A DNA stretch of 64,000 bases from positions 311,126-375,125 of the forward strand of contig BGKB01000009.1 in NCBI GenBank assembly GCA_003116975.1, read 5' to 3'. The notes beneath the pieces are model-generated. The model was not told the origin of the DNA and made no database searches. It was given only the letters and a program-made list of their open reading frames with translations. The DNA comes from Aurantiochytrium sp. KH105. Lineage: Eukaryota > Sar > Bigyra > Thraustochytrida > Thraustochytriidae. Shown here piece by piece: positions 1,172-35,516 of this stretch (within the stretch, counting starts at the first letter, position 1; each line of letters starts with the position of its first letter). The translations under genes were made by a program, and so were the position numbers.

Positions 1172-2472
1172 TTAGTGAGTATCATAAGAGAAGCAAACCC
1201 CTACAAGTTCGGTATCAGCGGCAAGCGGCTTGCAAGCCTCAACTTGCGTTGCGGCATAGAACGCCAAGGCTTCTACAGCAACCTGCTCCGCTTGAAAGCG
1301 CTCGACAATGCGAGAACGATATAAGGCACGTTGCTCAACTGCCATTTGTGCGAGCCGATTCGTATGTTCTTCGAGTTTCGCCTCGATTCGATCGAGGTTC
1401 TCGAGGAAATGTGCCCGCAGCGCGCGCACGGCACGATCGACTGCATCGGTCTCTGCCTCACGTGGAACAGGAACGGAGTCATCTTCTTCAGCGTCCGGAG
1501 AAGAGTTAGTAGCATCCGCCAAGTGAGAAGGTGACGCTGCGCGAGCAATGGCAAACGCCTTTTCCACACGAGGAACCTCAGGTGCAGCATTCTTGCCCGC
1601 TTTGGCGGGAGCATCCTCAACGTCGCTAAAGATGGATGAAATGCACGCAAGCTCGGGTCTATCTCCAGGCTCCTTGCCCTGCAGCGCACTGTCCAGACGT
1701 ACAAGCACCCAATGCAGCACCTGAAAACGGCTGACTTCGAGCTGAACGAGCTGAAGATACGTATCTTCTGCAAGGGCAGTCAAGGTTGGCACTGCCAGAC
1801 TTTCCTCGAGTTCCTGTACGAATGCAGACAGGGTGGCATCTCGTGTGGAGGACTGCGTCCAGAGCTTGGCGACCAGATCTTCAATGCGCGCATGAAGCTC
1901 TGCGCGAGTTCGAGGATCATATCGTGCGTCCTCTGCAATGCAGTTGACGCTCTCCCGAAAGCTCACGACTTCTTGAGCACGCTCTGCGTCGCTTGTGGAA
2001 TCGATAAGCTTAGCATCAATCGTTGCCCGCTCTTTCAGGAAATGATCGACCCAGCGAGTTCGCAAGCGCCGCATCTCAAGCAAGACTTCTTTAACGCCAG
2101 AGATGTAGGCCTTGTCGCAGGTGTCGACCTCAGTGACGATTGCTCTTGCAAGTTCAGGGTCCAGAGTCTCAAGGGAAAGTGGCGGCGCTGAGCTGTCTTC
2201 CTCATGGGTTGCATCTTCCTCTTCTTCCTTGCCAGCTTTCGCAGCGCTCTTCCCCTTGCCTTTGGCAGCCTTCTTTTCTTGTTCCAGAACAGCCGCGCGA
2301 TGCGCTGCAATCTGCTCTTGGGCCATTGCGCGCACGTGGTCGAGCACAGTGGCCAGAGGGTCCGGCATGGAGAACTCTGGATCCGACGAGTTTTCGGGAG
2401 TCGCTTCATCACCACCCTGAAACTCTTCCTTCTCTTCTGTTTCGTCTTCTTTCGCTCTTTCTTGTCGTTCTT

Positions 2473-2503
<31 letters not shown>

Positions 2504-5500
2504 TCGCTGCTGCTTTTGGCTTTTCTGCCGCGCGTTGAATTTTTCGCATCGTTTTAGTATGTGTCGAACTGCCTTTTCAACGTGGCGTGAACGCCTGTTA
2601 TTCTCCGCGAGACGTAAAGTATCCGAATCACTTTGACATTCGTGCGAATTCTGGTCCCCGTCCGCAGCTTCAGTGACTTCTTCCTTTTCTTCTTGTGCAA
2701 TGGGAGAATTTCCTTCCTCTTCATCCTCCTCCGTCTCCTCTTCACTTTCCTCTTGCTTGTCGACAGCCTCAGTGTCCCGCAACGCAGACGTGACGAGCTC
2801 ACGAAGATGTGAGAAGTCGACGTCGATGCCCTCGACGTCAAAAACTTGAACAAAGCTCAGGACGACGCCTCGTGCTCGACCTTCGATACCTTCGCGGTAT
2901 TGAGCTGCCATGTCGAGACAGGTGTCGACGTCGGCACAGCTGAGTAGCTCGCAATAGGTGACGGGATCGTTCAAGTCCACCGCGGTCTCATCCGCGTCTT
3001 GGCGGAGAACGCCTGCGGCCTTGAAAGCTCGGACATTTAGAGGAGGCACGTCAGCAATCGCAAGACTAGGCGAGGGATTTTCGTCATCGACCGCTCTTGC
3101 AGTTTCATCATCGCCGATAGCCTGTGGTGGCGTCTTTCGTCTGGCTCGTGCATCGAGGGCCTCGAGCCAATCGGTGGTAAGGCGGCGACACTTTTCTAAA
3201 TGTGCTTGCCGCTCGGCGAAAGCCTTCTCGCTGGCCTCTCGATCTAGCTTTTGCTGTAACTTTCTCTCCACGCTGGTCTCAAGGAGCGTAAAAATGGAAT
3301 CCGACAAGCATCCAGTCGTCTCAAAACTTTCAAAGACTCCGAATGGCGTGTACCATGACGCGAGCTCTGGCAAGTTCTCTTCGGTGATATAGACTTGCGG
3401 AGCCACGCGAAATCGCTCACTCGCATCAGCAAGAGTGTTCGCCGCTGCTTTTCGAAAGGTGGCGGTGCGTTCACACTTGAGATGAAGGACAATGTCAAGG
3501 CCTCCGGCGTCAAGTCCTTGAAATTGACTCGGATCCACAGGACGGGGCGCGTCGCAGGGCAGCGACAGAGCAGGCTGGGGCTGGTACTCGCACGCCTCTA
3601 CATCCTTTCCACTGAGTCGAGCCTCAAGAAGGCGAGCTTGCGCACGGTTAAATGGAAAGCCATCCATGACCCAGCCTTGGCATGTGTGGACTTGGCCAGA
3701 TGAGTGGTGCAAGAGGTTGATGACGACTTGCTCGGTGTGATCCCCAAAGACACACTCAAAGTAGCTTTGGAATTCTTCCCAGGTGATACGACCGTCCATG
3801 TTGAAGTCCATTTGCGCAAAAGCCTCAAGGGCCTCGGCTTCGATGTCACTCTGCGACTTGCCTTCGCAGTGCGCGCGCATGGTGGCCTTTAGGAGCTCTT
3901 GCGCATCGAGATCTCCAGAGCCATCGAGATCCCAAAAGTCAAAGAGCTGGCGGAGGCGATCAAGCGCCGTCACGAATGATACTCGAGGCTGAGATCCGAC
4001 AGCAGCCCGGGCGTGTGAAGATCGTTGTACCGCTATGTCCTGAGCCTCCGCGTCAAGCTCAAGACGCTGAATCGCTTGCACGCACGCTTCTACATAGTCC
4101 TCATCCGAGTAGCTTCCGTCTGCAAGCTTGTTCACCTTGCCTTTGGAGACGAAGGTTCGCATAAAGGCCTCGGGCTGCAAAATACGTAGACCAAAGCGTG
4201 CTGCAATACGAATCGCCATTGCAGTCTTGTGCGCGAACGGAGGCCCGAGAAGAGCAAGCTGCAGCCGAAAGCGCCGACTTACTGCAGGTATGGGCGCGGG
4301 TGGAGCAGGCTGCGAGGTGATGCGAAGAGGCACGAGAAGATTTCCCACCGCGCATCGATCGGATGTGCGTTCCACTCCAGCCCAGAGTCGATTGTCTGCC
4401 AGGTAATCGTCTACTTCCGCGTCCAGCCTCGCAGGATTTTGGACAAAGTCGACTTTCGTTTCCGTGATTGTTTCAGGCATGCCTGTGGAAGTGCCTTCAC
4501 GGCGCCTTGCGTCAATTTGAGCCAAGGTAAGGTCAACGAGATCGAGAGCAATTTGCTTGCAAGTTCTCTGCGCGTCTGCATGTGCAGCGCCTTTCACGGA
4601 ATCCCGCAGCGCTGTGATTTGCGTTTCGAACCACATTGCGTTTTTCTCGACGCGCAAATCACGATCGGCGAGCACCTCGAGACGCCTTTGCTCAAATCTT
4701 TCGGCTTCCAGGCGCTCTTGTTCATCATCCATTTGCTCTCGGTGCTTTCGGTTGGCACGAATGACGCTTTCAAATTTGTCCTGTTCTGCAAGTGCGTCTG
4801 TTAGTGTTTGCTCGGCCCTGGATGAGCGTAACAGAGAAGATTGCAAATGCTTGATGCGCCGCTCGTGGAGAATGTCCTTGGTTTCGAGCCGCATTTGGTC
4901 CAAAAAGCGAACGCGACGACTTTCGCGCGCTTCCTGCTCTTCGCGGGACGATTGCCGACGAAGGCGATGCTCTCCAACGCTTTTGGCATTGTTGGACGTG
5001 TCCGGATGGCCAAGGCCACCATTCACAATGGCCATGTCGCGCCGGTGCGCTTCGACGCGCTGTTCCATTTGGGAAATTTCCTCAATGGTGAGCTGGCGGT
5101 CTGCTTCTTTGGCCATGACCTTTGCGTCAAGCTGCTTCTGAATCTTTCGCGACTCATGACGCGCGCGAACCTCGTCAATATACTTGCGCCTCCGCTGATT
5201 TTCGGTCCAGATCCCGATTCCCTTTTCATTCCAGTCATTCAGGTATTCGAGTTCTGCCTTTTTATCCATCATTCGACGCCGTCGAATTTCGTTAAAGTAC
5301 ATGGCAAGCGTGTCGCGATCATTTTGCTTGCAAAACTCAATGTAGGCGTCTTGCCGAGCACGCTCATCGTAGAAGGGCTGAAGGTGTTTCTCCATATCGA
5401 CCTGGTTCTGACTGGTGATCTGCTGTCGCAGCGTCTTGACGAAAACGTCGCTCTTGGCATTGTCGTAGCTCGGCTTTCTTGTGTGCGCGGGAAGATTGGT

Positions 5501-5890
5501 GAGCGCAATGAAATTGCCGGGCATGAAGCCTTCGTCCCGGTGCCGGCCCACCTCCACGGTGATCTGCTTGAGCGCCTTGCGAACTTTGTAAAGCACATCA
5601 AAGCAGGTCTTGTCATCGCCGTTGATCATGCGCAGCGCAACGCGTGCGTCGAAGTTTTTCACGTTGAGTCGTGTGAGCGTGCGCTCGATGCGGATGAAGT
5701 TTGCTACCTTTTTTTGCACGCGTTGGCTATCGTGAAATTCGTCAAAGTCGTCCTGCTGGTTGTGACGATATAGCAGCTCGCCTAGGAGGTAGCCACTGGA
5801 AAAAGCGCTGCCGAGGCTCTCACTGGCGCCGCCAACGCGCTTCGTGAGCTGCACCTCATCATTGAGCCAGTCCTGCAAGAGGCGGCTCAT
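1172..5890 (-). CDS. CPC1/SPEF2-like central-pair protein
   Basis: This is a single 1,572-aa frame. Its ATG sits in a strong GCCACCATG context. Residues 1-110 form a CH-like (CLAMP/DUF1042) domain starting LLQDWLNDEV. A long charged coiled coil follows (about 170-520). An adenylate-kinase-like domain starts near residue 545 with a P-loop-like LLGPPFAHKT. Two EF-hands lie at about 640-705 (DLDGSGDLDAQEL and DFNMDGRITWEEF). After that come more kinase-like sequence (GWVMDGFPFNRAQA), a Glu-rich stretch and a short poly-Gln run, then C-terminal helices. This order is that of Chlamydomonas CPC1 and vertebrate SPEF2, which belong to the C1b projection of the axonemal central pair. The P-loop is degenerate, so nucleotide binding is uncertain. 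It implies a motile 9+2 flagellum. Confidence 0.88.
2476..2502. repeat. (CTG)n run encoding poly-Gln in the CPC1-like gene
   Basis: About nine GCT/CTG units on the plus strand read as CAG (Gln) codons in the minus-strand gene. They sit inside a charged low-complexity linker and are likely length-variable. Confidence 0.85.
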
Positions 5891-7042: not shown

Positions 7043-8185
7043 ATGAGGGCCTGGATGGAACTCTGCGCCGAAAAGGGCCACGGGACGTGGAACTCAACCT
7101 CGAAACGCTGCGAATGCGACGAGTGGTGGTCGGGGAAAACCGACATGCTTAACTTCGACGGCTATGCATGCCTAACATACGAGCCTGTGAACATGGCAAT
7201 TTGGTGTCTCCCGTTGATCGCCATTACAATATTGCAGGTGCGCATTGTCAAGGCATTTCGGACGCAGATCTCAGCATTTTGGAAAATGCGCGCCCGGCAG
7301 GCCAAGCGAGGTATTAAGCTCAGGTGGTGGCAGCACAAGCCGCTGCGGCTCGTGCTTATCGCTCAGATTTCCCCCATTCTCATCTTCTTTGCGGTACCTT
7401 TCAAGGTAGCCTTGCACGAAAACCGGGTGGTGGGTTATGACGTGCACATGTCCGTAGCATTTTTCCTTGCCGCTGCAATCCAATTTGTGGGCAATGTTAT
7501 GGCAGAAGAAGTTGCACTCGGGGCTCTTTTACAGGGATTTGCAGGGTCAAACGGAAAGGAGGTGGAGAGGATTCAGCGGCGCATGTTTCGCACTGCATAC
7601 GTTGCCATTTTTATCTATTGCTGTCTTTCTCTTCCAACCTATTTTACGGGCGCTATTGAAGGCAAGCCATACAGGTTTCCATACGATTCGGAAATGCGGT
7701 ATATGCTCATTATTCGCAACTTTGGCATGATCTCGTATCTTTTGTGGATGGCACTTTTGGCGAAACAAACCACATCGCAGACCGCGCGCTTGCTCGCATT
7801 TCATACCTCAACTGCCACAAGCGAGAAGACGCGAGAAGTTAACGAGATTTTGAATCACCTTCGCGGGTCTGCAAAGGCCAAGATGAAGACTGCGGTGATG
7901 GCGGCTCTGATTTATGGCACCTTTTCGATCAAGCCGCTTTGGCCCTATCAGGGCATACCGATGGCATTTTTGCTCTTTAAAGTTGCCTCTTCCCGCGCAC
8001 ATTACATTTGCGATTTTATGGGTTCGTCGAGACGAGGGGCTTATAGTAGTGCAACGCAGTCGGTGGTTCCTGAAGGCGAACGTGCTTCGCAGACTGCCGT
8101 CACAGATGGATCGGTCATTGCCGCTCAGACAGACGGCTCGGTAACAACTGCTCCAGCACATGGATCCATCGTTGCCGAGCAATGA
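7043..8185 (+). CDS. EGF-like plus six-TM membrane protein, paralogue 1
   Basis: This 380-aa protein belongs to a three-gene local family I do not recognise. Residues 1-45 form an EGF-like module ending in CECDEWWSGKTD and a final Cys before TYEP. About six hydrophobic segments follow, with conserved family motifs: AKRG after TM1, an ENRVVGYD loop, RYMLIIRN, and PLWPYQG before the last TM. The start is the ATG at 7043, because an in-frame stop lies at 7022-7024; it aligns with the MR start of paralogue 2. Two of six EGF cysteines are replaced by Trp (residues 4 and 16). The tail carries three degenerate TDGSV repeats. No signal peptide is visible, so the EGF module may be exported by TM1 or an upstream exon may be missing. 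Function unknown. Confidence 0.8.
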   Translation: MRAWMELCAEKGHGTWNSTSKRCECDEWWSGKTDMLNFDGYACLTYEPVNMAIWCLPLIAITILQVRIVKAFRTQISAFWKMRARQAKRGIKLRWWQHKPLRLVLIAQISPILIFFAVPFKVALHENRVVGYDVHMSVAFFLAAAIQFVGNVMAEEVALGALLQGFAGSNGKEVERIQRRMFRTAYVAIFIYCCLSLPTYFTGAIEGKPYRFPYDSEMRYMLIIRNFGMISYLLWMALLAKQTTSQTARLLAFHTSTATSEKTREVNEILNHLRGSAKAKMKTAVMAALIYGTFSIKPLWPYQGIPMAFLLFKVASSRAHYICDFMGSSRRGAYSSATQSVVPEGERASQTAVTDGSVIAAQTDGSVTTAPAHGSIVAEQ

Positions 8186-8680
8186 ATAAAAACAAGATAC
8201 CTTTGTGCGGGCGTGTGTTTATTGTGTGTGTCTTTTCCCCCATTCCTCTTCTTTGGGATGACTCGTTCTCAAAGACTTTTTACCGATTTGCCCAATGATT
8301 TGCCCGTTACTTTTTTTTTTTAATCCGAGTACTACATCAGGCTTTGAAGTACTAGTATTAGGCCTAATACCAATTACTTCATGGCATGGAGCTCGAGTCC
8401 TGACAGTGCGTCATTGCACTGGCAACGAACAACGTAAATAGATGACGAGCTACAATTCGTGCGTAAAGAATCAAGGAGAGTCGATTTCTATTTTTTATTT
8501 TGTACAATGTCGAGCTATCGAAGCATTGGCGAGTCAAAATGCATCTGTCTGTGACTGTGACAGTGAGTTGACCGCTCATAAAAATTGGAAGCTTTTTTTC
8601 TTCCGCTGTCAAAACAACGCATCCTCGATGGCTCATTGCGACAGCCGGACGGCAAGTCGTGCAGATCACGAGATCATCTC
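8186..8680. other. Spacer between EGF/6-TM paralogues 1 and 2
   Basis: This is about 500 bp of AT-richer sequence between tandem genes, with a poly-T run near 8310. The paralogue 2 frame is open upstream of its ATG to about 8585, but no ATG lies there. That stretch may be 5' UTR or part of a missed exon. Confidence 0.5.
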
Positions 8681-10132
8681 ATGAGAATGTGCGTGGACAC
8701 TTGCGGCGCCCACGGGGAGTGCAACGCAGATGGGGTCTGCGAGTGCGACGCGTGGTGGTCGGGGCGTACGGACTTTGTCTTGTACCAGGGCTGGGCATGC
8801 AATACACCCGAGCCATTTATTGTCGCAGTTTGGTCGGCCGTGCTTCTCGCGTGCGTGTATTTGCAAGTGCAAATCATCCGCGCGGGTTTAGTACAATTGT
8901 CCAAGTTTTCGCAAAGGCGTCGATTCCAAGCGAAGCGTGGTCAAACTCTCAAATTGTATCGTCAACCTTTTGTGCTTCTTGGTATCATCGCCGAGCTCTC
9001 GCCGCTGTGCATGGGCATAGTGGCTTGGAAAAAGGTGACCCGAGCTGAGGATCGCACGATCGGCTACGATGTTCTCGTGTCGGTATTCTTTGCTATTGCC
9101 ACCGTTTCTGGCTTTATTGGTAATTTTTTAGCCGAAATGGTTACGTTTGAAGCCCTTGCAAAGGGTATCAAGACCAACTCTGCTCATGAAATGAGTATTG
9201 TGCGACGTAAGCTGTCGCACGCTGCGTTTGCCGGCATTTTCGTATATATTGTCACGCTAGCTGGCTCCATTGTGCCGGGATGTTTGATTGAAGAAGGGGA
9301 GATCGGGGATCCTCGGGAGTCCGTGCAGCGTTGGCTCCTGATTGGCCGAAACATGGGCACAATCGCGTACATGCTGCTTACCATGCGGAGCGCGCAACAA
9401 GCTTATGCGCGCGCCCAAGAATTCAATGAGTCTTTGCTGATCACAAGTGTTCTTGCGCAAAATGAGTCCAATAAGGCTCTGCAAAGATTCGTGGAGAACT
9501 TGGAGGCGCTATCGCGAGAGAAAGTAAAGACTGGCAAGACTGCTTTGGTCGTGTACACTGTGTTTTCGCTACCCTGGATGTGGCCGTACCAGTCCGTGGC
9601 AGCAGGCTTAGTGACTGTAAAGGTCTTTACCTCACGATTGCATTTTGTCCATCAATATCTTGGTGCTGTGAAGGCTGCCAAGACGAGGGCCAAGAATGCA
9701 AATGAACCTCACGAGCGCGACTTTAATCGTAGTACAGTGTGCTCACAAAGCAAAGTGAGTCCATTTGAGGATCAACTCGATGACTGCGTGCAGCGTAATG
9801 AAGGCGAACATCAAGGCAAAGTAGCTCACCAAAGGGGGTCCGAGCTTTCGAGCCCAGACGTGCTTTCAAGCGGAAAAGTGCTTTCATCGAGTATGTTGAA
9901 TGCACAGGGAACGTTGATTCGGGCACTTTTGAACGAAGATTGCGCTCAAAGCGATGCAGATCTCGTTCAAGAGGATGCAATGGATGTGTCTATGAAGCAC
10001 TCGAAAGATAAGCTGTCCTCGGCGAGTGCGCGTTGCTCACTGGCAGGAATAGATTCTGCCGATTCGAACGGTAAAGACGTTCAGGGCGAGGCAGACACTA
10101 CGAAAAGCGTAGAAACAAAGCTGTCTCTCTAA
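8681..10132 (+). CDS. EGF-like plus six-TM membrane protein, paralogue 2
   Basis: The frame gives a 483-aa protein from the ATG at 8681; the open frame further upstream begins only at a TTG codon. A complete six-Cys EGF-like module comes first (CVDTC, GEC, GVCEC, then GWAC after DAWWSGRTD). About six TM segments follow, with the family motifs QAKRG, EDRTIGYD, NFLAE, a WLLIGRN segment and VFSLPWMWPYQ. The hydrophilic C-terminal tail of about 150 residues is longer than in the paralogues and rich in Ser, Asp and Glu, so it is probably cytosolic and regulatory. It lies head to tail with paralogue 1 and converges on paralogue 3. Family and function are unknown to me; a surface receptor, sensor or adhesion role is only a guess from the EGF module. 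Confidence 0.8.
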   Translation: MRMCVDTCGAHGECNADGVCECDAWWSGRTDFVLYQGWACNTPEPFIVAVWSAVLLACVYLQVQIIRAGLVQLSKFSQRRRFQAKRGQTLKLYRQPFVLLGIIAELSPLCMGIVAWKKVTRAEDRTIGYDVLVSVFFAIATVSGFIGNFLAEMVTFEALAKGIKTNSAHEMSIVRRKLSHAAFAGIFVYIVTLAGSIVPGCLIEEGEIGDPRESVQRWLLIGRNMGTIAYMLLTMRSAQQAYARAQEFNESLLITSVLAQNESNKALQRFVENLEALSREKVKTGKTALVVYTVFSLPWMWPYQSVAAGLVTVKVFTSRLHFVHQYLGAVKAAKTRAKNANEPHERDFNRSTVCSQSKVSPFEDQLDDCVQRNEGEHQGKVAHQRGSELSSPDVLSSGKVLSSSMLNAQGTLIRALLNEDCAQSDADLVQEDAMDVSMKHSKDKLSSASARCSLAGIDSADSNGKDVQGEADTTKSVETKLSL

Positions 10133-10594
10133 AGTGCTGTGTGTGAGAGCGGCAAGCTGCTAGTGATGCACTCACAAGATTGGTGTGAGCGTACCAAGTA
10201 CAACTGACGTTATGGACGGGGAAAGGGTTGAAAGTCCAAAAGTTGTAGAGAGTCAACGATACGACATTTGGTCATGTTGAGTGACACTTGCAGCTCTTAC
10301 TCTTCATACAGATGGCATGACCACATCGAGTTTGCTGTTCAAGGAAAAGAAAAGACTTCCTTGCAAGTCGTGTACACGCGCGTCCTAAAGAGGGTGTCGA
10401 AGGTGCGTTCATCTGCCTTCCTCTCTTTTTGAAGAAAAGTGGCGATGCTTGTCAGTAGTTGCACTCTCTGACAGTGTCACTTCACTTTTGGCTTTCGGTT
10501 GAGAGAGAGAGAGGAGATGCATTAAGCGAGATTGTCATCCGATTCGTTGTTCTGGTGAGAAATGAGCATTATACATGATATTATTATTCTTTTT
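10133..10594. other. Convergent 3' spacer
   Basis: The spacer between the stop codons of paralogues 2 and 3 has no ORF of note. A short GA run lies near 10501-10515. Confidence 0.5.
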
Positions 10595-11722
10595 TCAATC
10601 TTTGACTGATTCGACGTTTGATGCTGGTGGATGTTGAGACCGGTTTTGATAATTCGTTTGCTGATTTGCATGTGTTGTTGCGGCACTTGCAACCGAAGAA
10701 GGGAGCACCGAGTTGACTTTGATTGATGCGTACTTTGATCGTTGAGGTAAGCTGAGAAAGTTGTGGACAAAGTGGGCTTTGCCTGTGATTTTGATAATAA
10801 CAATGGCGATGGGATATGTTTGATAGGGCCAAAGCCACGGCAAAGAAAAGACGACATAGATGAGCGTGGACACCTTGGCAAGTTTGATCTTTTCGTGGCT
10901 CATGTCCTCGAGGTGTTTCAGGAAAGCCTCGACCTTGCGCGAGCTTTTGCTTTGCGTCTGCGCTGTTGCTGACATCGAATGGAGTAAATGCTGTCCCTGT
11001 TCTGCTGCTGTCCGCGCAATAAGCCCAAGCGCTTGCATAAAGACGATGAGACTGCAGTTGCGAATCACTAGCATGTATCGCATGGGCGAGTCTTGTGGAG
11101 GGGTGTCCTCTAAGTGGCATCCAAAAAGGACGGTGACAGCTGTAATGCCCGCATAGAGTGAGACCGCGGACCAGTTTCGAAAGCGAAGGTTGCGGCGCAG
11201 CTTGGCGATGTCCTCCGGACGAGTATTTGTCAGATTTTTGAGAAGAGTATCAAGTGTGTTCATCTCGGCCAAGAAGTTTGTGATAAATCCATAGGGGACG
11301 GCGATCACGAAGAGGACACTGACCGACCATGTGCGTCCGAGCTCTCGGTCCTCCAGCAAAAACGCCTTGGGTGCCGCGATGGCAATAAGTACAGGCGGCG
11401 CAAGGATGCCACTGAAGAGGATGCGGAAGGGAACAAACTTCCACGGTGGTAGCGTACTGCCCTTTTTCACTGCGCGCGCTCTAAGCCCAGCGTAGCTCCT
11501 CGCCTGCAGGCGAAAGGCGCGAATAATGTTGAAGAATAGGCGTATGGAGCTGAGTAGCGCCACAGCCCAGATTGCCGCCTCTGTAATTTCGAAGTTTGTG
11601 CATCGATATCCATCGTAGCTGAGCATGTCGGCCTTGCCTGTCCACCACGTGTCGCAGATGCATGTGCCTTGCTCGCAGCTGCCATGGCGGCCGCAATCAG
11701 CGCTTGTTTCGCATGCGCCCAT
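10595..11722 (-). CDS. EGF-like plus six-TM membrane protein, paralogue 3
   Basis: The protein has 375 aa from the ATG at 11722; a longer frame to 11752 would need a GTG start. Residues 4-41 form a six-Cys EGF-like module (CETSADC, GSC, GTCIC, then DTWWTGKAD and YRC). Six hydrophobic segments follow at roughly 48-70, 96-120, 131-155, 185-210, 225-250 and 295-330. Family motifs are VKKG, EDRELG, NFLAE, RYMLVIRN and VFSLPWLWPYQ, then HFVHNFL. It is inverted relative to paralogues 1 and 2, so the cluster arose by duplication plus inversion. All three start immediately before the EGF module. The family is unrecognised; function unknown. Confidence 0.8.
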   Translation of the reverse strand: MGACETSADCGRHGSCEQGTCICDTWWTGKADMLSYDGYRCTNFEITEAAIWAVALLSSIRLFFNIIRAFRLQARSYAGLRARAVKKGSTLPPWKFVPFRILFSGILAPPVLIAIAAPKAFLLEDRELGRTWSVSVLFVIAVPYGFITNFLAEMNTLDTLLKNLTNTRPEDIAKLRRNLRFRNWSAVSLYAGITAVTVLFGCHLEDTPPQDSPMRYMLVIRNCSLIVFMQALGLIARTAAEQGQHLLHSMSATAQTQSKSSRKVEAFLKHLEDMSHEKIKLAKVSTLIYVVFSLPWLWPYQTYPIAIVIIKITGKAHFVHNFLSLPQRSKYASIKVNSVLPSSVASAATTHANQQTNYQNRSQHPPASNVESVKD

Positions 11723-24636: not shown

Positions 24637-25794
24637 ATGGCAGAGTCGCGCGCAGGGGCCGTTGTAGGGCGCGTCTTTGTGTATGGAACGCTAAAGCGCG
24701 GATTCTACAATCACCAATTCCTGTCGTCGGCAAGCCTCGCGAGGCGTCTTGGCCAAGGCGAAACGTGCGAAAAGTACCACCTTGCAGTCGGTGGAGACTT
24801 TCTCGTCCCGTTTCTGCAGCAGCCAGGGGGCGCAGGCGACAAATGTGGAGAGAAAGGTGACGATGATGCGACTGCGATTGCCGTCAAGTCCGTGCGAGGC
24901 GAAATCTACGAGGTCGACGCGCCGACGCTTGCCATGTTGGATCGAATCGAAGGCGTCCCGCACTTTTACAAGCGCTGCGAGGCGAAAGTGCACTTGCGAC
25001 CCGAGGCTGGTGCGAGCACGGATTCTTCCGAGACTCAAGTGCAACCCGAGGCTGGCGCGAGCACGGACTCTTCCAAGACTCTGACTTGTTTCGTATACGT
25101 GAAGACTGAGCTCGCTCGAGATCTTCTCCAACACGAGCCGCTCGAGGCGTATACGCAGGCTCTACACCACACGTACGTGCCCCCGCCGCTTCGTCCAGAT
25201 CATGAATTGCACGTGGATCTCGCCGAAGATCGAGCAGAAGCTGTTGCATTCGATGCTGACGCGTGTTACGGAGCTGAAGCGAGTATCTGGCGCGCTTTCA
25301 TGGACGCCTTGCCCAAAGAAGGCGAGCAGGAGACTTGCGCGCTTACCGTTCTTGAAGTAGGGTGCGGAACGATGGCGCCTGCGATGCAAGCGCTACGATC
25401 CACCCACAGCGACGCAAAGGTGACGTGTGTTGATGTCTCTGAAAGAAGACTCGAAGCTGCGCGGTCAAAGTTTGCATCGCAAACTGACGCGGTGCGCTTT
25501 GCACGTGTGAATCTGGCTCAGCTGTTCACGGAATATTCTTTCAAGAGCTTTGATGGCGCCGTTTGTCTTGGTGTCTTGCGTTCCGTCCCGGAGGCTCTAC
25601 AATTTCACTGCCTGCGACTGCTCGTATCCTTGACGCGCGGGCCGGTTCTCGTCGACTGGCCTGGAGACCTCGATGTTTTTGTGCGTCATTTGCGGGATAT
25701 TGATGTGCAATGCCTTGTGAGTCAGGATGTTGAGGAGACACAAGATGGAGCGAAACGACAAACGCGAGTACATGTTTTGAGTCCTTGTCCATGA
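24637..25794 (+). CDS. Gamma-glutamylamine cyclotransferase-like / SAM methyltransferase fusion
   Basis: The 385-aa frame joins two domains. Residues 11-185 are a GGCT/AIG2-like fold of the GGACT subgroup: VFVYGTLKRG (13-22), then GEIYEVDAPTLAMLDRIEG, where Glu105 fits the family's catalytic acid, then PHFYKR. GGACT enzymes release 5-oxoproline from gamma-glutamyl-amines such as transglutaminase cross-link products. Residues 235-370 look like a class I methyltransferase: motif I is VLEVGCG (238-244), followed by VTCVDVSE with an acidic residue at 266 and FDGAVCLGVL. Motif IV is poorly defined, so activity is uncertain. The cyclotransferase domain has a 15-residue tandem duplication (120-149). 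I know no standard family with this pairing. Confidence 0.75.
   Translation: MAESRAGAVVGRVFVYGTLKRGFYNHQFLSSASLARRLGQGETCEKYHLAVGGDFLVPFLQQPGGAGDKCGEKGDDDATAIAVKSVRGEIYEVDAPTLAMLDRIEGVPHFYKRCEAKVHLRPEAGASTDSSETQVQPEAGASTDSSKTLTCFVYVKTELARDLLQHEPLEAYTQALHHTYVPPPLRPDHELHVDLAEDRAEAVAFDADACYGAEASIWRAFMDALPKEGEQETCALTVLEVGCGTMAPAMQALRSTHSDAKVTCVDVSERRLEAARSKFASQTDAVRFARVNLAQLFTEYSFKSFDGAVCLGVLRSVPEALQFHCLRLLVSLTRGPVLVDWPGDLDVFVRHLRDIDVQCLVSQDVEETQDGAKRQTRVHVLSPCP
24994..25083 (+). repeat. 45-bp coding tandem duplication
   Basis: Two 45-bp units encode PEAGASTDSS-containing 15-mers. They lie in the loop after the GGACT catalytic region and differ by only a few bases, so the duplication is recent. 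Confidence 0.88.
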
Positions 25795-26240: not shown

Positions 26241-27911
26241 TTAGTGGATCACATCAAGCGTAGGATCGAATGCGCGACGGAACATGGGACCCTCCTTGCG
26301 GAAGCGCAAGACAAAGAACCAGAGGCACATGAAGAAGACCATGACACCTCCCGAGATGCCAAAAACAACCCAGTTGCCAACCGAAGCGATGAGCGGGAGC
26401 GCCAGCGAAGTCCAGACACCGCCACCGAGGAAAGGCTCAGTGATGAGCTGTTTGGCGGCGAAAGCCTTGGCGGCAGGGGTCTCATACTGCGGGTCAACAA
26501 TACGCAAAAGCATGAGGCCAATTGAGGTGGTGGCGGTACTCGTACCAAACTCGGGGAGAGCGCGCTCGACCCAAAAGTCAGGGAGCATGAGCGGTGCGAG
26601 GAAGAAGAAGCAGACCAGCTGGTAGGCGAGAATGACAAAGAGAACAATCATGAGCGGGCCAATGTTGTCGGCAACAACCTGAAGGTTGGTGGTGGCGACG
26701 GCCGTAAGCACAAGGACGTCAAGGGCAAAGCCGGAAATGCGCTCCATCATGCCGCGGTCAAGAGGAGAATCCTCGAGGTACTTGTCGAAGATGACCTGAA
26801 GCACGAGACCCCAGAGCAGACACATGGGGAAGAGGGGGAAGCCGGAGAAGAACGAGTACTCGGTGAGCCAGTCGTTGAGGGTCTCGAAGGCAATGAGCAT
26901 GCGCTTGGTCCAGTAGGCGAGCATGAGCACGACGCCAAGGTACGAGACATGAAGCGCAAGGGTTTCGATGGCATCACCAGAGACGGTAAGGTAGGCACCG
27001 GGAATACGCTTCTCCGTGGGGATGAGAGCGCGGTCACGCCAGGAGCGGAGCTCTTCGCCGTGCTCGATGGGGGTCTCATTGCGCGGGTCAGAGGAGCCAT
27101 TGTCGGAACTGGAGGCAACGCCAACGTGGGCGTCCTCGCCGTGGCGCTTGTCCTCAATAGCCTCCGGGTTGACGTGCGAGGGGTCCGCCTTGGTGACCTC
27201 GGCGTCACCGCTGTTGTTGCTACCGATGCCAGCGTAGGCCTCGGTGTCTTTGTCCTCCTTGCGGCGGGCCAGGTACGACATGCGGGACCATCCAAAGTAG
27301 TTCGCGATGTTGCAGAGGATGGTGCCAACGATGACACCAAAGAGGATACCGATGGTGGCGGCGGTGATGCCGAGATCGCCACCTTCGGGGAATCCGAGCG
27401 AGGTATACGAGGCGGTGACACCTGCCGCGGTACCGTGGCCACCCTGGGTGCCTACGGGTCCGAGGGATCCGAAGAGCGGGTTGGTGTCCCAGACGGGCAT
27501 GAAGAGGATGGGGGTGAGGAGGCAGGCGAAGAACCAGTTGCCCCAGGCGATGACCCAGCCGTAGGCAATTTGCGGCGCAGCGGTCTCCCAGATCTCGCGC
27601 GCGCTCGGCACGGCCTTGCCCATGAAGAGCGTGGCGAAGATAATGTTGATGAGGAAGCCCGGCATGGAGCTCCATCCATCGATAAAGTCGCTCTCGACGA
27701 CAGCGTAGACGGTGTCATTTAGGGTACAGAGTTGGACGAACATGAGAGCGAGGAGGCCGCCGATAAGTGATGCGGGCAGCATGAACTTGCGCGTGCAAGC
27801 GACGTACTCGCGTACGATGTGTCCGATGTACATGAACACAAAGAGGGTTGAGAAGGACGACACGAGTGCCATGCTTCCGCCCAAGGCGAAGGGCGGGAGC
27901 TCCTCCGACAT
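26241..27911 (-). CDS. GltS-type sodium/glutamate symporter, paralogue 1
   Basis: The 556-aa multi-pass protein resembles the bacterial ESS (GltS) family, which imports glutamate with Na+. The family hallmark is the pair of re-entrant loops. The first is GTQGGHGTAAGV. The second is probably FGTSTATTSIGLMLLRI, which replaces the bacterial TPTA-type sequence. The order is an N-terminal TM repeat beginning LPASLIGGLLAL, a long hydrophilic central loop of about 90 residues rich in Asp, Ser and Asn, then the second TM repeat. Bacterial members are about 400 aa; the extra length is mainly this loop and the C-terminus. The ATG is preceded by a CAAG-rich leader. It is clearly more diverged from the other two paralogues than they are from each other. 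Substrate in this organism is inferred. Confidence 0.8.
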   Translation of the reverse strand: MSEELPPFALGGSMALVSSFSTLFVFMYIGHIVREYVACTRKFMLPASLIGGLLALMFVQLCTLNDTVYAVVESDFIDGWSSMPGFLINIIFATLFMGKAVPSAREIWETAAPQIAYGWVIAWGNWFFACLLTPILFMPVWDTNPLFGSLGPVGTQGGHGTAAGVTASYTSLGFPEGGDLGITAATIGILFGVIVGTILCNIANYFGWSRMSYLARRKEDKDTEAYAGIGSNNSGDAEVTKADPSHVNPEAIEDKRHGEDAHVGVASSSDNGSSDPRNETPIEHGEELRSWRDRALIPTEKRIPGAYLTVSGDAIETLALHVSYLGVVLMLAYWTKRMLIAFETLNDWLTEYSFFSGFPLFPMCLLWGLVLQVIFDKYLEDSPLDRGMMERISGFALDVLVLTAVATTNLQVVADNIGPLMIVLFVILAYQLVCFFFLAPLMLPDFWVERALPEFGTSTATTSIGLMLLRIVDPQYETPAAKAFAAKQLITEPFLGGGVWTSLALPLIASVGNWVVFGISGGVMVFFMCLWFFVLRFRKEGPMFRRAFDPTLDVIH

Positions 27912-33953: not shown

Positions 33954-35516
33954 TTAGTTGTCGATGACATCGTAAGCGGGGTTGAAGCCGCGACGGAACA
34001 TCGGGCCCTCCTTGTTCTTGCGCAGAACGAGGAACCAGACGCCAAAGAAGAACGCCATCACACCAGCAGAGAGACCAACGACGGCCCAGTTGCCGACAGA
34101 GGCAATGAGCGGGAGCGCGAGCGAGGTCCACACGCCACCACCAAGGAAGGGCTCAGTCACGAGCTGCTTGGCAGCAAAAGCCTCGGCAGCAGGCGTCTCG
34201 TACTCGGGGTCCACAATGCGCAAAAGCATGAGACCAATCGAGGTGGTCGCGGTACTGGTGCCAAACTCCGGAAGAGCACGCTCAACCCAGAAGTCCGGAA
34301 GCATGAGCGGCGCGATGAAGAAGAAGCAGATGAGCTGCCAGCCGAGAATGGCAAAGAGAACAATCATGAGGGGGCCAACGTTGTCAGCGACGACAGCAAG
34401 GTTGGTCGTGGCGACGGCAGTGAGCACGAGCACATCGAGCGAGAAGCCGGAGATGCGCTCCATCATGCCGCGGTCCAGAGGCGAGTCCGTGCAGTACTTG
34501 TCGACAAGGATCTGGATGACAAGACCCCAGAGAAGGCACATGGGGAAAAGCGGGAAGCCGGAAAAGAAGGCGTACTCAACGAGCCAGTCGTCGAGGGTCT
34601 CGAGGGCGATAAGAATGCGCTTGGTCCAGTACGAGAGGAACAGCACGACGCCAATGTACGCCATGTGCAGGGCGAGGGTCTCGACGGCATCGTTGGAAAC
34701 GGTAAGGTAGGCGCCAGGGACGCGCTTGGCCATGGGGATGATCGCCTTCTCGGTCCAGGGGCGCACCTCAAAGCCGTGCTGGGCGGGAACACCAGGGACG
34801 TTGTCAACATCGGACATCGGGTTGGCCTGCTCCTTGGAGTACGAGTCAACGGTGCCGTTCTCAGCATCCTCGGCCTCCTTGAGCAGAAGGGACATGCGGG
34901 TCCAGCCAAAGTAGTTGGCAACGTTGCACAGAATGGTACCGACAATGACACCAAAGAGGATACCGATGGTGGCGGCAGTGATACCGAGATCGCCACCCTC
35001 CGGGAAGCCGAGCGCAGCGTACGAGGCAGTCACGCCAGCAGCCGTACCGTGGCCACCCTGGGTACCAACGGGGCCGAGGGAGCCAAAGAGAGGGTGAGTG
35101 CCAAAGGCAGGGATGAAGAGGATTCCGGTGAGCAAGCAAGCCCAGAACCAGTTGCCCCATGCGATCACCCAGCCGTAGGCGATCTGAGGGGCAGCAGTAT
35201 CCCAAATGTCGCGGGCGTTGGGCACGGTCTTGCCCATGAAGAGGGTGGCAAAGACGATGTTGATGAGGAATCCAGGCATGTTGCCCCAGCCAGAGATGAA
35301 GTCGCTTTCAATCACAGTCGTTGCGTCGTCGTCGAGGGTGCACATTTGCACAAAGAAGAGGGCAAGGAGACCGCCAATGAGAGAGGCCGGCAGCATAAGC
35401 TTACGCGTGCAGGCGAGGTGCTCGCGGATGACATGGCCAATGTACATGAAGACAAAGAGGAGCGAGAAGGACGAGACTCGCGCCATGCTGCCTCCGAGAG
35501 CAAAGTCGGTCGCCAT
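33954..35516 (-). CDS. GltS-type sodium/glutamate symporter, paralogue 2
   Basis: The 520-aa protein has the same architecture as paralogue 1 but a shorter central loop (about residues 207-260). Landmarks are LPASLIGGLLAL (42-53), GTQGGHGTAA (151-160) and the second-repeat loop FGTSTATTSIGL. It differs from paralogue 3 at about 19 residues by eye, or roughly 96% identity. Several differences lie in the central loop and none in the two re-entrant motifs. The start is an ATG followed by ATDFALGGS, as in paralogue 3. Its 5' flank is also duplicated, so both copies should share regulation. Plasma-membrane amino-acid uptake is inferred from the family. Confidence 0.82.
   Translation of the reverse strand: MATDFALGGSMARVSSFSLLFVFMYIGHVIREHLACTRKLMLPASLIGGLLALFFVQMCTLDDDATTVIESDFISGWGNMPGFLINIVFATLFMGKTVPNARDIWDTAAPQIAYGWVIAWGNWFWACLLTGILFIPAFGTHPLFGSLGPVGTQGGHGTAAGVTASYAALGFPEGGDLGITAATIGILFGVIVGTILCNVANYFGWTRMSLLLKEAEDAENGTVDSYSKEQANPMSDVDNVPGVPAQHGFEVRPWTEKAIIPMAKRVPGAYLTVSNDAVETLALHMAYIGVVLFLSYWTKRILIALETLDDWLVEYAFFSGFPLFPMCLLWGLVIQILVDKYCTDSPLDRGMMERISGFSLDVLVLTAVATTNLAVVADNVGPLMIVLFAILGWQLICFFFIAPLMLPDFWVERALPEFGTSTATTSIGLMLLRIVDPEYETPAAEAFAAKQLVTEPFLGGGVWTSLALPLIASVGNWAVVGLSAGVMAFFFGVWFLVLRKNKEGPMFRRGFNPAYDVIDN

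Follow-up and report, generated by a model that had tools for sequence, protein, structure and literature searches.

EGF-capped membrane proteins of Aurantiochytrium sp. KH105 as candidate GPCR-like seven-helix receptors

Three neighboring genes of the thraustochytrid Aurantiochytrium sp. KH105 raise the question of what role is played by proteins which join a small epidermal growth factor (EGF)-like module to a series of membrane helices. They lie in a stretch of 64,000 nucleotides of contig BGKB01000009.1 (the window, meaning the whole of the DNA that was analyzed). As the original prediction had it, they are paralogues placed side by side, two in direct orientation and one inverted, at 7043-8182 (+), 8681-10129 (+), and 10598-11722 (-). 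Each is a single open reading frame (ORF) from ATG to stop, these ORF coordinates excluding the stop codons, and the pairwise identity of the three products is 33-34%. The best reading of the family to which they belong, favored with slightly better than even confidence, is that of EGF-capped seven-helix receptors resembling G-protein-coupled receptors (GPCRs). The parts of the cluster are the following.

7043..8185, plus strand: gene 1, 380 amino acids, single ORF with EGF-like tip, membrane domain, and short tail
7064..7171, plus strand: EGF-like module of gene 1, placed by alignments, with one Cys changed to Trp
7184..8032, plus strand: membrane domain of gene 1, six hydropathy peaks
8681..10132, plus strand: gene 2, 483 amino acids, single ORF with EGF-like tip, membrane domain, and long tail
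8690..8800, plus strand: EGF-like module of gene 2 (Pfam EGF_2, E 0.0065, under the curated cut-off)
8816..9679, plus strand: membrane domain of gene 2, modeled with seven helices of membrane length
9680..10129, plus strand: predicted cytosolic tail of gene 2, placed by sequence, its side of the membrane judged from charges
10595..11722, minus strand: gene 3, 375 amino acids, single ORF, inverted, with EGF-like tip, membrane domain, and short tail
11600..11713, minus strand: EGF-like module of gene 3, matched by Pfam EGF_Teneurin (E 0.00046) and EGF_2 (E 0.0024), each under its curated cut-off
10748..11584, minus strand: membrane domain of gene 3, modeled with seven helices

The three genes do not constitute the whole family, since at least 19 such loci occur in the genome. 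Loci were counted through searches with five members followed by inspection of the ORFs, and the counts are therefore lower bounds. The assembly (76 Mb in 367 contigs) apparently holds two haplotypes; each of the 19 counted loci occurs on two contigs, which were taken as haplotypes, and the window cluster on C9 is paired with one on C35. Subgroup A contains 13 loci, including the window trio, and subgroup B contains six. In the tree of the 19 members, the trio forms one branch (100/100) and subgroup B another (100/99 as drawn). Comparisons of membrane-part profiles, for which only the sequence after the EGF-like module was used, gave a probability of 97.6% for the trio against the ten other members of subgroup A (E 3.6e-12, 247 columns), 92.7% for these ten against subgroup B, and 95.8% for all 13 members of subgroup A against the six of subgroup B. 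The trio alone matched subgroup B at 8.0%, and at the level of sequence it is linked to that subgroup through the remaining members of subgroup A. Column-shuffled controls reached at most 0.5% (sets of five and four; 0.5% also for the trio against the ten when shuffled), and against these controls the profile matches show that the membrane domain represents one family.

Some of the motifs which had been proposed as shared within the cluster are looser than claimed. A-K-R-G becomes V-K-K-G in gene 3, R-N is kept while the residues preceding it vary (L-I-I, L-I-G, or L-V-I), and P-x-W-P-Y-Q is kept as P-x(1,2)-W-P-Y-Q, its spacing not being fixed at one residue. Four members (L008, L011, L017, and L025) end in Y-V, as D-Y-V in three and G-Y-V in one, after a mostly acidic stretch, and an S-F element is found in the tails of L008, L011, and L025. 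A terminal Y-V resembles a PDZ ligand, and these elements may possibly act as docking motifs.

The core C-x-C-D-x-W-W-[ST]-G-[KR] of the tip is found in all three window genes, as predicted. Its W-W is a feature of the trio, and C-x-C-[DE]-x-G-[WF]-[ST]-G is read in seven of the 12 other members compared. The cysteine framework with Gly-x-Cys and C-x-C identifies the module as an EGF-like domain; in gene 1, a Trp replaces one of the cysteines (HGTW). The Pfam scan took in 18 members, without L071, with E thresholds of 5, 0.5, and 0.1. Among 15 members, 14 matched EGF_2 at E<=0.5 (lowest E 1.4e-6), as did two of three further members at E<=0.1; two of the window genes scored 17.2 and 18.6 bits, under the Pfam cut-off of 22.1, and gene 1 had no Pfam EGF match up to E 5. 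The occurrence of the tip in all 19 members is partly by construction, because their ORFs were chosen with an EGF pattern and the search queries also contained the EGF-like module.

A second, apparently unrelated group with EGF-like module and several helices was encountered at C53:177500-178639, C180:8920-10059, C22:924-1751, and C105:192958-193788. C53/C180 and C22/C105 would be two loci if they are haplotype pairs. The membrane part of the C53 protein has seven hydropathy peaks and a 7tm_7 match of E 3.5e-5, under the cut-off. These proteins were excluded from the 19 because the layout is common to both groups but a relation of their membrane domains is undetectable.

The family is under purifying selection. 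Both alleles were compared at 18 of the 19 loci; L071 was left out because its C107 allele (G000:C107:20061-21089) has one in-frame TAG, which makes it null unless the sequence is in error. The pooled allelic ratio of nonsynonymous to synonymous polymorphism (pN/pS) was 0.16, and by region it was 0.11 in the EGF-like module (from only 37 differences), 0.14 in the membrane part, and 0.23 in the tail. Gene 1 is 97.8% identical to its C35 allele, with a ratio of nonsynonymous to synonymous substitution rates (dN/dS) of 0.15; the ratio is 0.19 for the allele pair of gene 2 and 0.21 for that of gene 3, within a range of 0.04-0.38 over all allele pairs. At one further locus (L020 in G000:C254 vs. 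L018 in G000:C20), the third helix of one allele contains a stretch of 16 residues repeated perfectly and in frame; this may be an assembly fault, as there is one N at the locus.

Instead of the six membrane segments first described, the domain probably has seven helices, judging from the two AlphaFold models, both of low confidence and each built on three sequences only: gene 3 with its EGF-like module (mean predicted local distance difference test, pLDDT, 52.6; predicted template modeling score, pTM, 0.45) and the membrane part of gene 2 (mean pLDDT 59.5, pTM 0.54). The charges of the loops alternate as expected with the N-terminus outside, which supports that orientation; the tail would then be outside with six helices and inside with seven. 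The last helix is followed by basic residues and the tails are rich in Ser/Asp, both judged by eye, which favors a tail inside. All 19 members have the same proline in helix 6, and among the residues conserved in the membrane part are Arg, Asn, Gln, and a number of prolines. Foldseek searches with the two models returned mostly GPCRs among the matches listed, which suggests a GPCR-like bundle.

The receptors would thus expose the EGF-like module outside, span the membrane with seven helices from an outer N-terminus, and keep a Ser/Thr/acidic tail inside. A cue, soluble or borne on a surface, would be met by the EGF tip and the outer loops, with R-(x)-[VLI]-G ahead of helix 3 and W-P-Y or N-K-H-D-Y ahead of helix 7 as candidate elements. 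The helix bundle would then shift, perhaps about the invariant proline of helix 6, the inner loops would activate one of the many G proteins of the genome, and the tail would be regulated.

A large G-protein apparatus exists in the genome, and the EGF-tipped family may make use of it. G-alpha domains were found at 27 places over the curated cut-off, which make ~14 loci if the haplotype copies are matched up through their score and position; class C GPCR domains were found at 69 places, likewise over the cut-off. These counts fit the enrichment of both domains in thraustochytrids described in a survey (PMC6050695). Clusters of three G-alpha genes are located on C38/C160 and on C245/C314, and in one of the clustered genes (C245:49750, C314:13060) both contigs show an in-frame TGA. 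On C27 (33471/52233) and C56 (29863/48482), ~18 kb separate a G-alpha gene from a class C GPCR domain.

Several results weigh against a receptor of this kind. Hydropathy averaged over the 19 members shows six peaks, and a separate seventh peak, 20-30 residues past the sixth, was seen by eye in eight of the 19 and in none of the three window genes. The best Foldseek E-values were only 0.036 and 0.050 for the two models. Class A GPCRs are marked by [DE]RY, CWxP, and NPxxY at their respective helices. No CWxP-like or NPxxY-like pattern was found in the 19 members, and [DE]R followed by an aromatic residue was found only in L023 (in the tail) and L069 (before the EGF-like module). Membership in class A is rejected, as the hallmarks are not at their helices; Pfam 7tm_1 matched gene 3 at E 1.1.

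The original prediction knew of no described family with this layout. However, the animal EGF-TM7 adhesion GPCRs such as ADGRE1 and CD97 likewise carry an EGF tip on seven helices (PMC6174849 and PMC8191316), and the layout is therefore not new in kind. The likeness holds at the level of layout, that is an outside EGF-like module and probably seven helices. In the window family, by contrast, a single EGF-like module, whose last loop is long, immediately precedes helix 1. Adhesion GPCRs of this type carry a GAIN domain with a GPS between EGF and helix 1, followed by class B2 helices. In the predicted model of gene 3, helix 1 begins three residues past the last EGF cysteine, so there is no room for a GAIN/GPS region. 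Membership among the adhesion GPCRs is rejected on this ground, and no Pfam GAIN/GPS or 7tm_2 match was found in the 18 members. Glutamate receptors of the mGlyR/GPR179 type with Cache and EGF also have an EGF-like domain adjoining the 7TM domain (PMC12716839), but the 18 members show no 7tm_3 or Cache match.

The family was rightly called unrecognized insofar as no Pfam membrane family reached its cut-off in the 18 members, and no strong match of the membrane part to a known transporter or receptor, named beforehand as the finding which would speak against novelty, came to light. The search of PDB sequences with gene 3 alone returned nothing up to E 5; with a profile of 15 members, most of the rows were chains containing EGF, and the membrane part drew three unrelated weak rows (E 0.29 to 1.3). 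Among viral contigs, a query of six members gave 87 pattern matches with no relative among them. None of the literature matches listed concerned a family with EGF and membrane helices in labyrinthulomycetes, most subscription journals and all bioRxiv preprints being outside coverage. Class A, class C, and adhesion GPCRs, gustatory receptor-like proteins (GRLs), and CREST hydrolases each fail at least one of the features tested. Tentatively, and with somewhat less than even confidence, the EGF-capped proteins may be taken as a GPCR class of their own, as yet undescribed, which has expanded in this lineage to at least 19 loci (13 + 6, two old subgroups) and is chemosensory or contact-sensing in concert with the ~14 G-alpha proteins.

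The original prediction had offered a surface sensor or an adhesion protein; the sensor best fits the topology and the genome context, and adhesion becomes the first of the rivals, unlikely yet the strongest among them. The EGF tip would bind other surfaces, for instance during settling or within the ectoplasmic net, while the helices would mainly anchor it, without G-protein signaling. EGF modules often serve adhesion, the family lacks GPCR hallmarks, and a group-specific structure could consist of proteins without known relatives; indeed, three candidate proteins of the ectoplasmic net are reported as too divergent to classify (PMC12221091). On the contrary, the allelic pN/pS of the membrane part is nearly as low as that of the tip, its conserved Arg, Asn, Gln, and prolines exceed the needs of a mere anchor, and the outer part amounts to merely ~40 residues.

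Channels or transporters are a distinctly poorer explanation than adhesion, in particular ligand-gated seven-helix channels like the insect odorant and gustatory receptors (seven-transmembrane ion channels, 7TMICs, and GRLs). Seven helices would be shared, and the layout analogue on C53 has its weak 7tm_7 match, but that match puts residues 152-319 (helices 2-5) on positions 17-191 of the 370 of the profile, out of register, and the membrane parts of the C53 group and the window family compare at 0.2-1.0%, that is with no detectable relation. Insect receptors of this type have the N-terminus inside, whereas the charge pattern of the family points to the opposite orientation. Moreover, 7tm_7 matched none of the 18 members scanned, and TY-x5-QF, the motif of these channels, is absent from all 19; membership was rejected on both grounds.

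Still less probable is that the members are highly diverged class C GPCRs, with which they share the genome and probably seven helices. The 69 class C places speak for it, as does L023, which lies ~1.4 kb from a class C domain of the opposite strand in both haplotypes (L023/L022, C29:168167-171104 and C39:198178-201128), and the profile E-values of 0.015-0.089 are slightly lower than the 0.51 and 0.54 of two shuffled controls. Against 16 class C domains, however, the trio reached 0.9%, the ten core members 3.0%, and subgroup B 0.6%, compared with 99.8% for the positive control; a comparison with EGF included gave 2.1%, and no Pfam 7tm_3 match occurred in the 18 members, so class C membership was rejected. 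The family also lacks a large outer ligand-binding domain in its ORFs, and the Cys pair found in 16 of 16 class C domains has no counterpart in its conserved columns.

Least credible of all are CREST-type membrane hydrolases (TMEM8/PGAP6), in which seven helices are likewise combined with an EGF-like domain, but these enzymes need conserved His/Asp/Ser and were rejected, as the membrane alignment of 13 members has no column in which His, Asp, or Glu reaches 60%; no such family is among the Pfam matches of the 18, and the fold is not among the fold-search matches listed, a listing which does not rule families out.

If the family does consist of EGF-capped, GPCR-like receptors, this group has a larger set of receptors for G-protein signaling than domain surveys reveal. 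The thraustochytrid survey counts class C receptors (PMC6050695); the present family escapes Pfam at its cut-offs, and domain-based surveys would miss it because no profile exists. Its members would be candidates for the sensing of cues in settling and feeding cells, and the family would be a further case, besides the animal adhesion GPCRs, in which an EGF tip sits on a seven-helix bundle.

Around the cluster, tandem repeats are short and all outside the ORFs, and an Rfam scan of the window gave no match. At 1175-5890 on the minus strand, the window encodes a SPEF2/CPC1-like protein of the flagellar central pair; it has EF-hand and CH-like domains and weakly matches adenylate kinase. At 24637-25791 (+), one ORF fuses a gamma-glutamyl cyclotransferase-like domain with a methyltransferase domain. 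Two ORFs of the minus strand, 26244-27911 and 33957-35516, match Pfam Glt_symporter (E 3.3e-7, above the cut-off, and 9.7e-6, just below it) and are perhaps paralogues.
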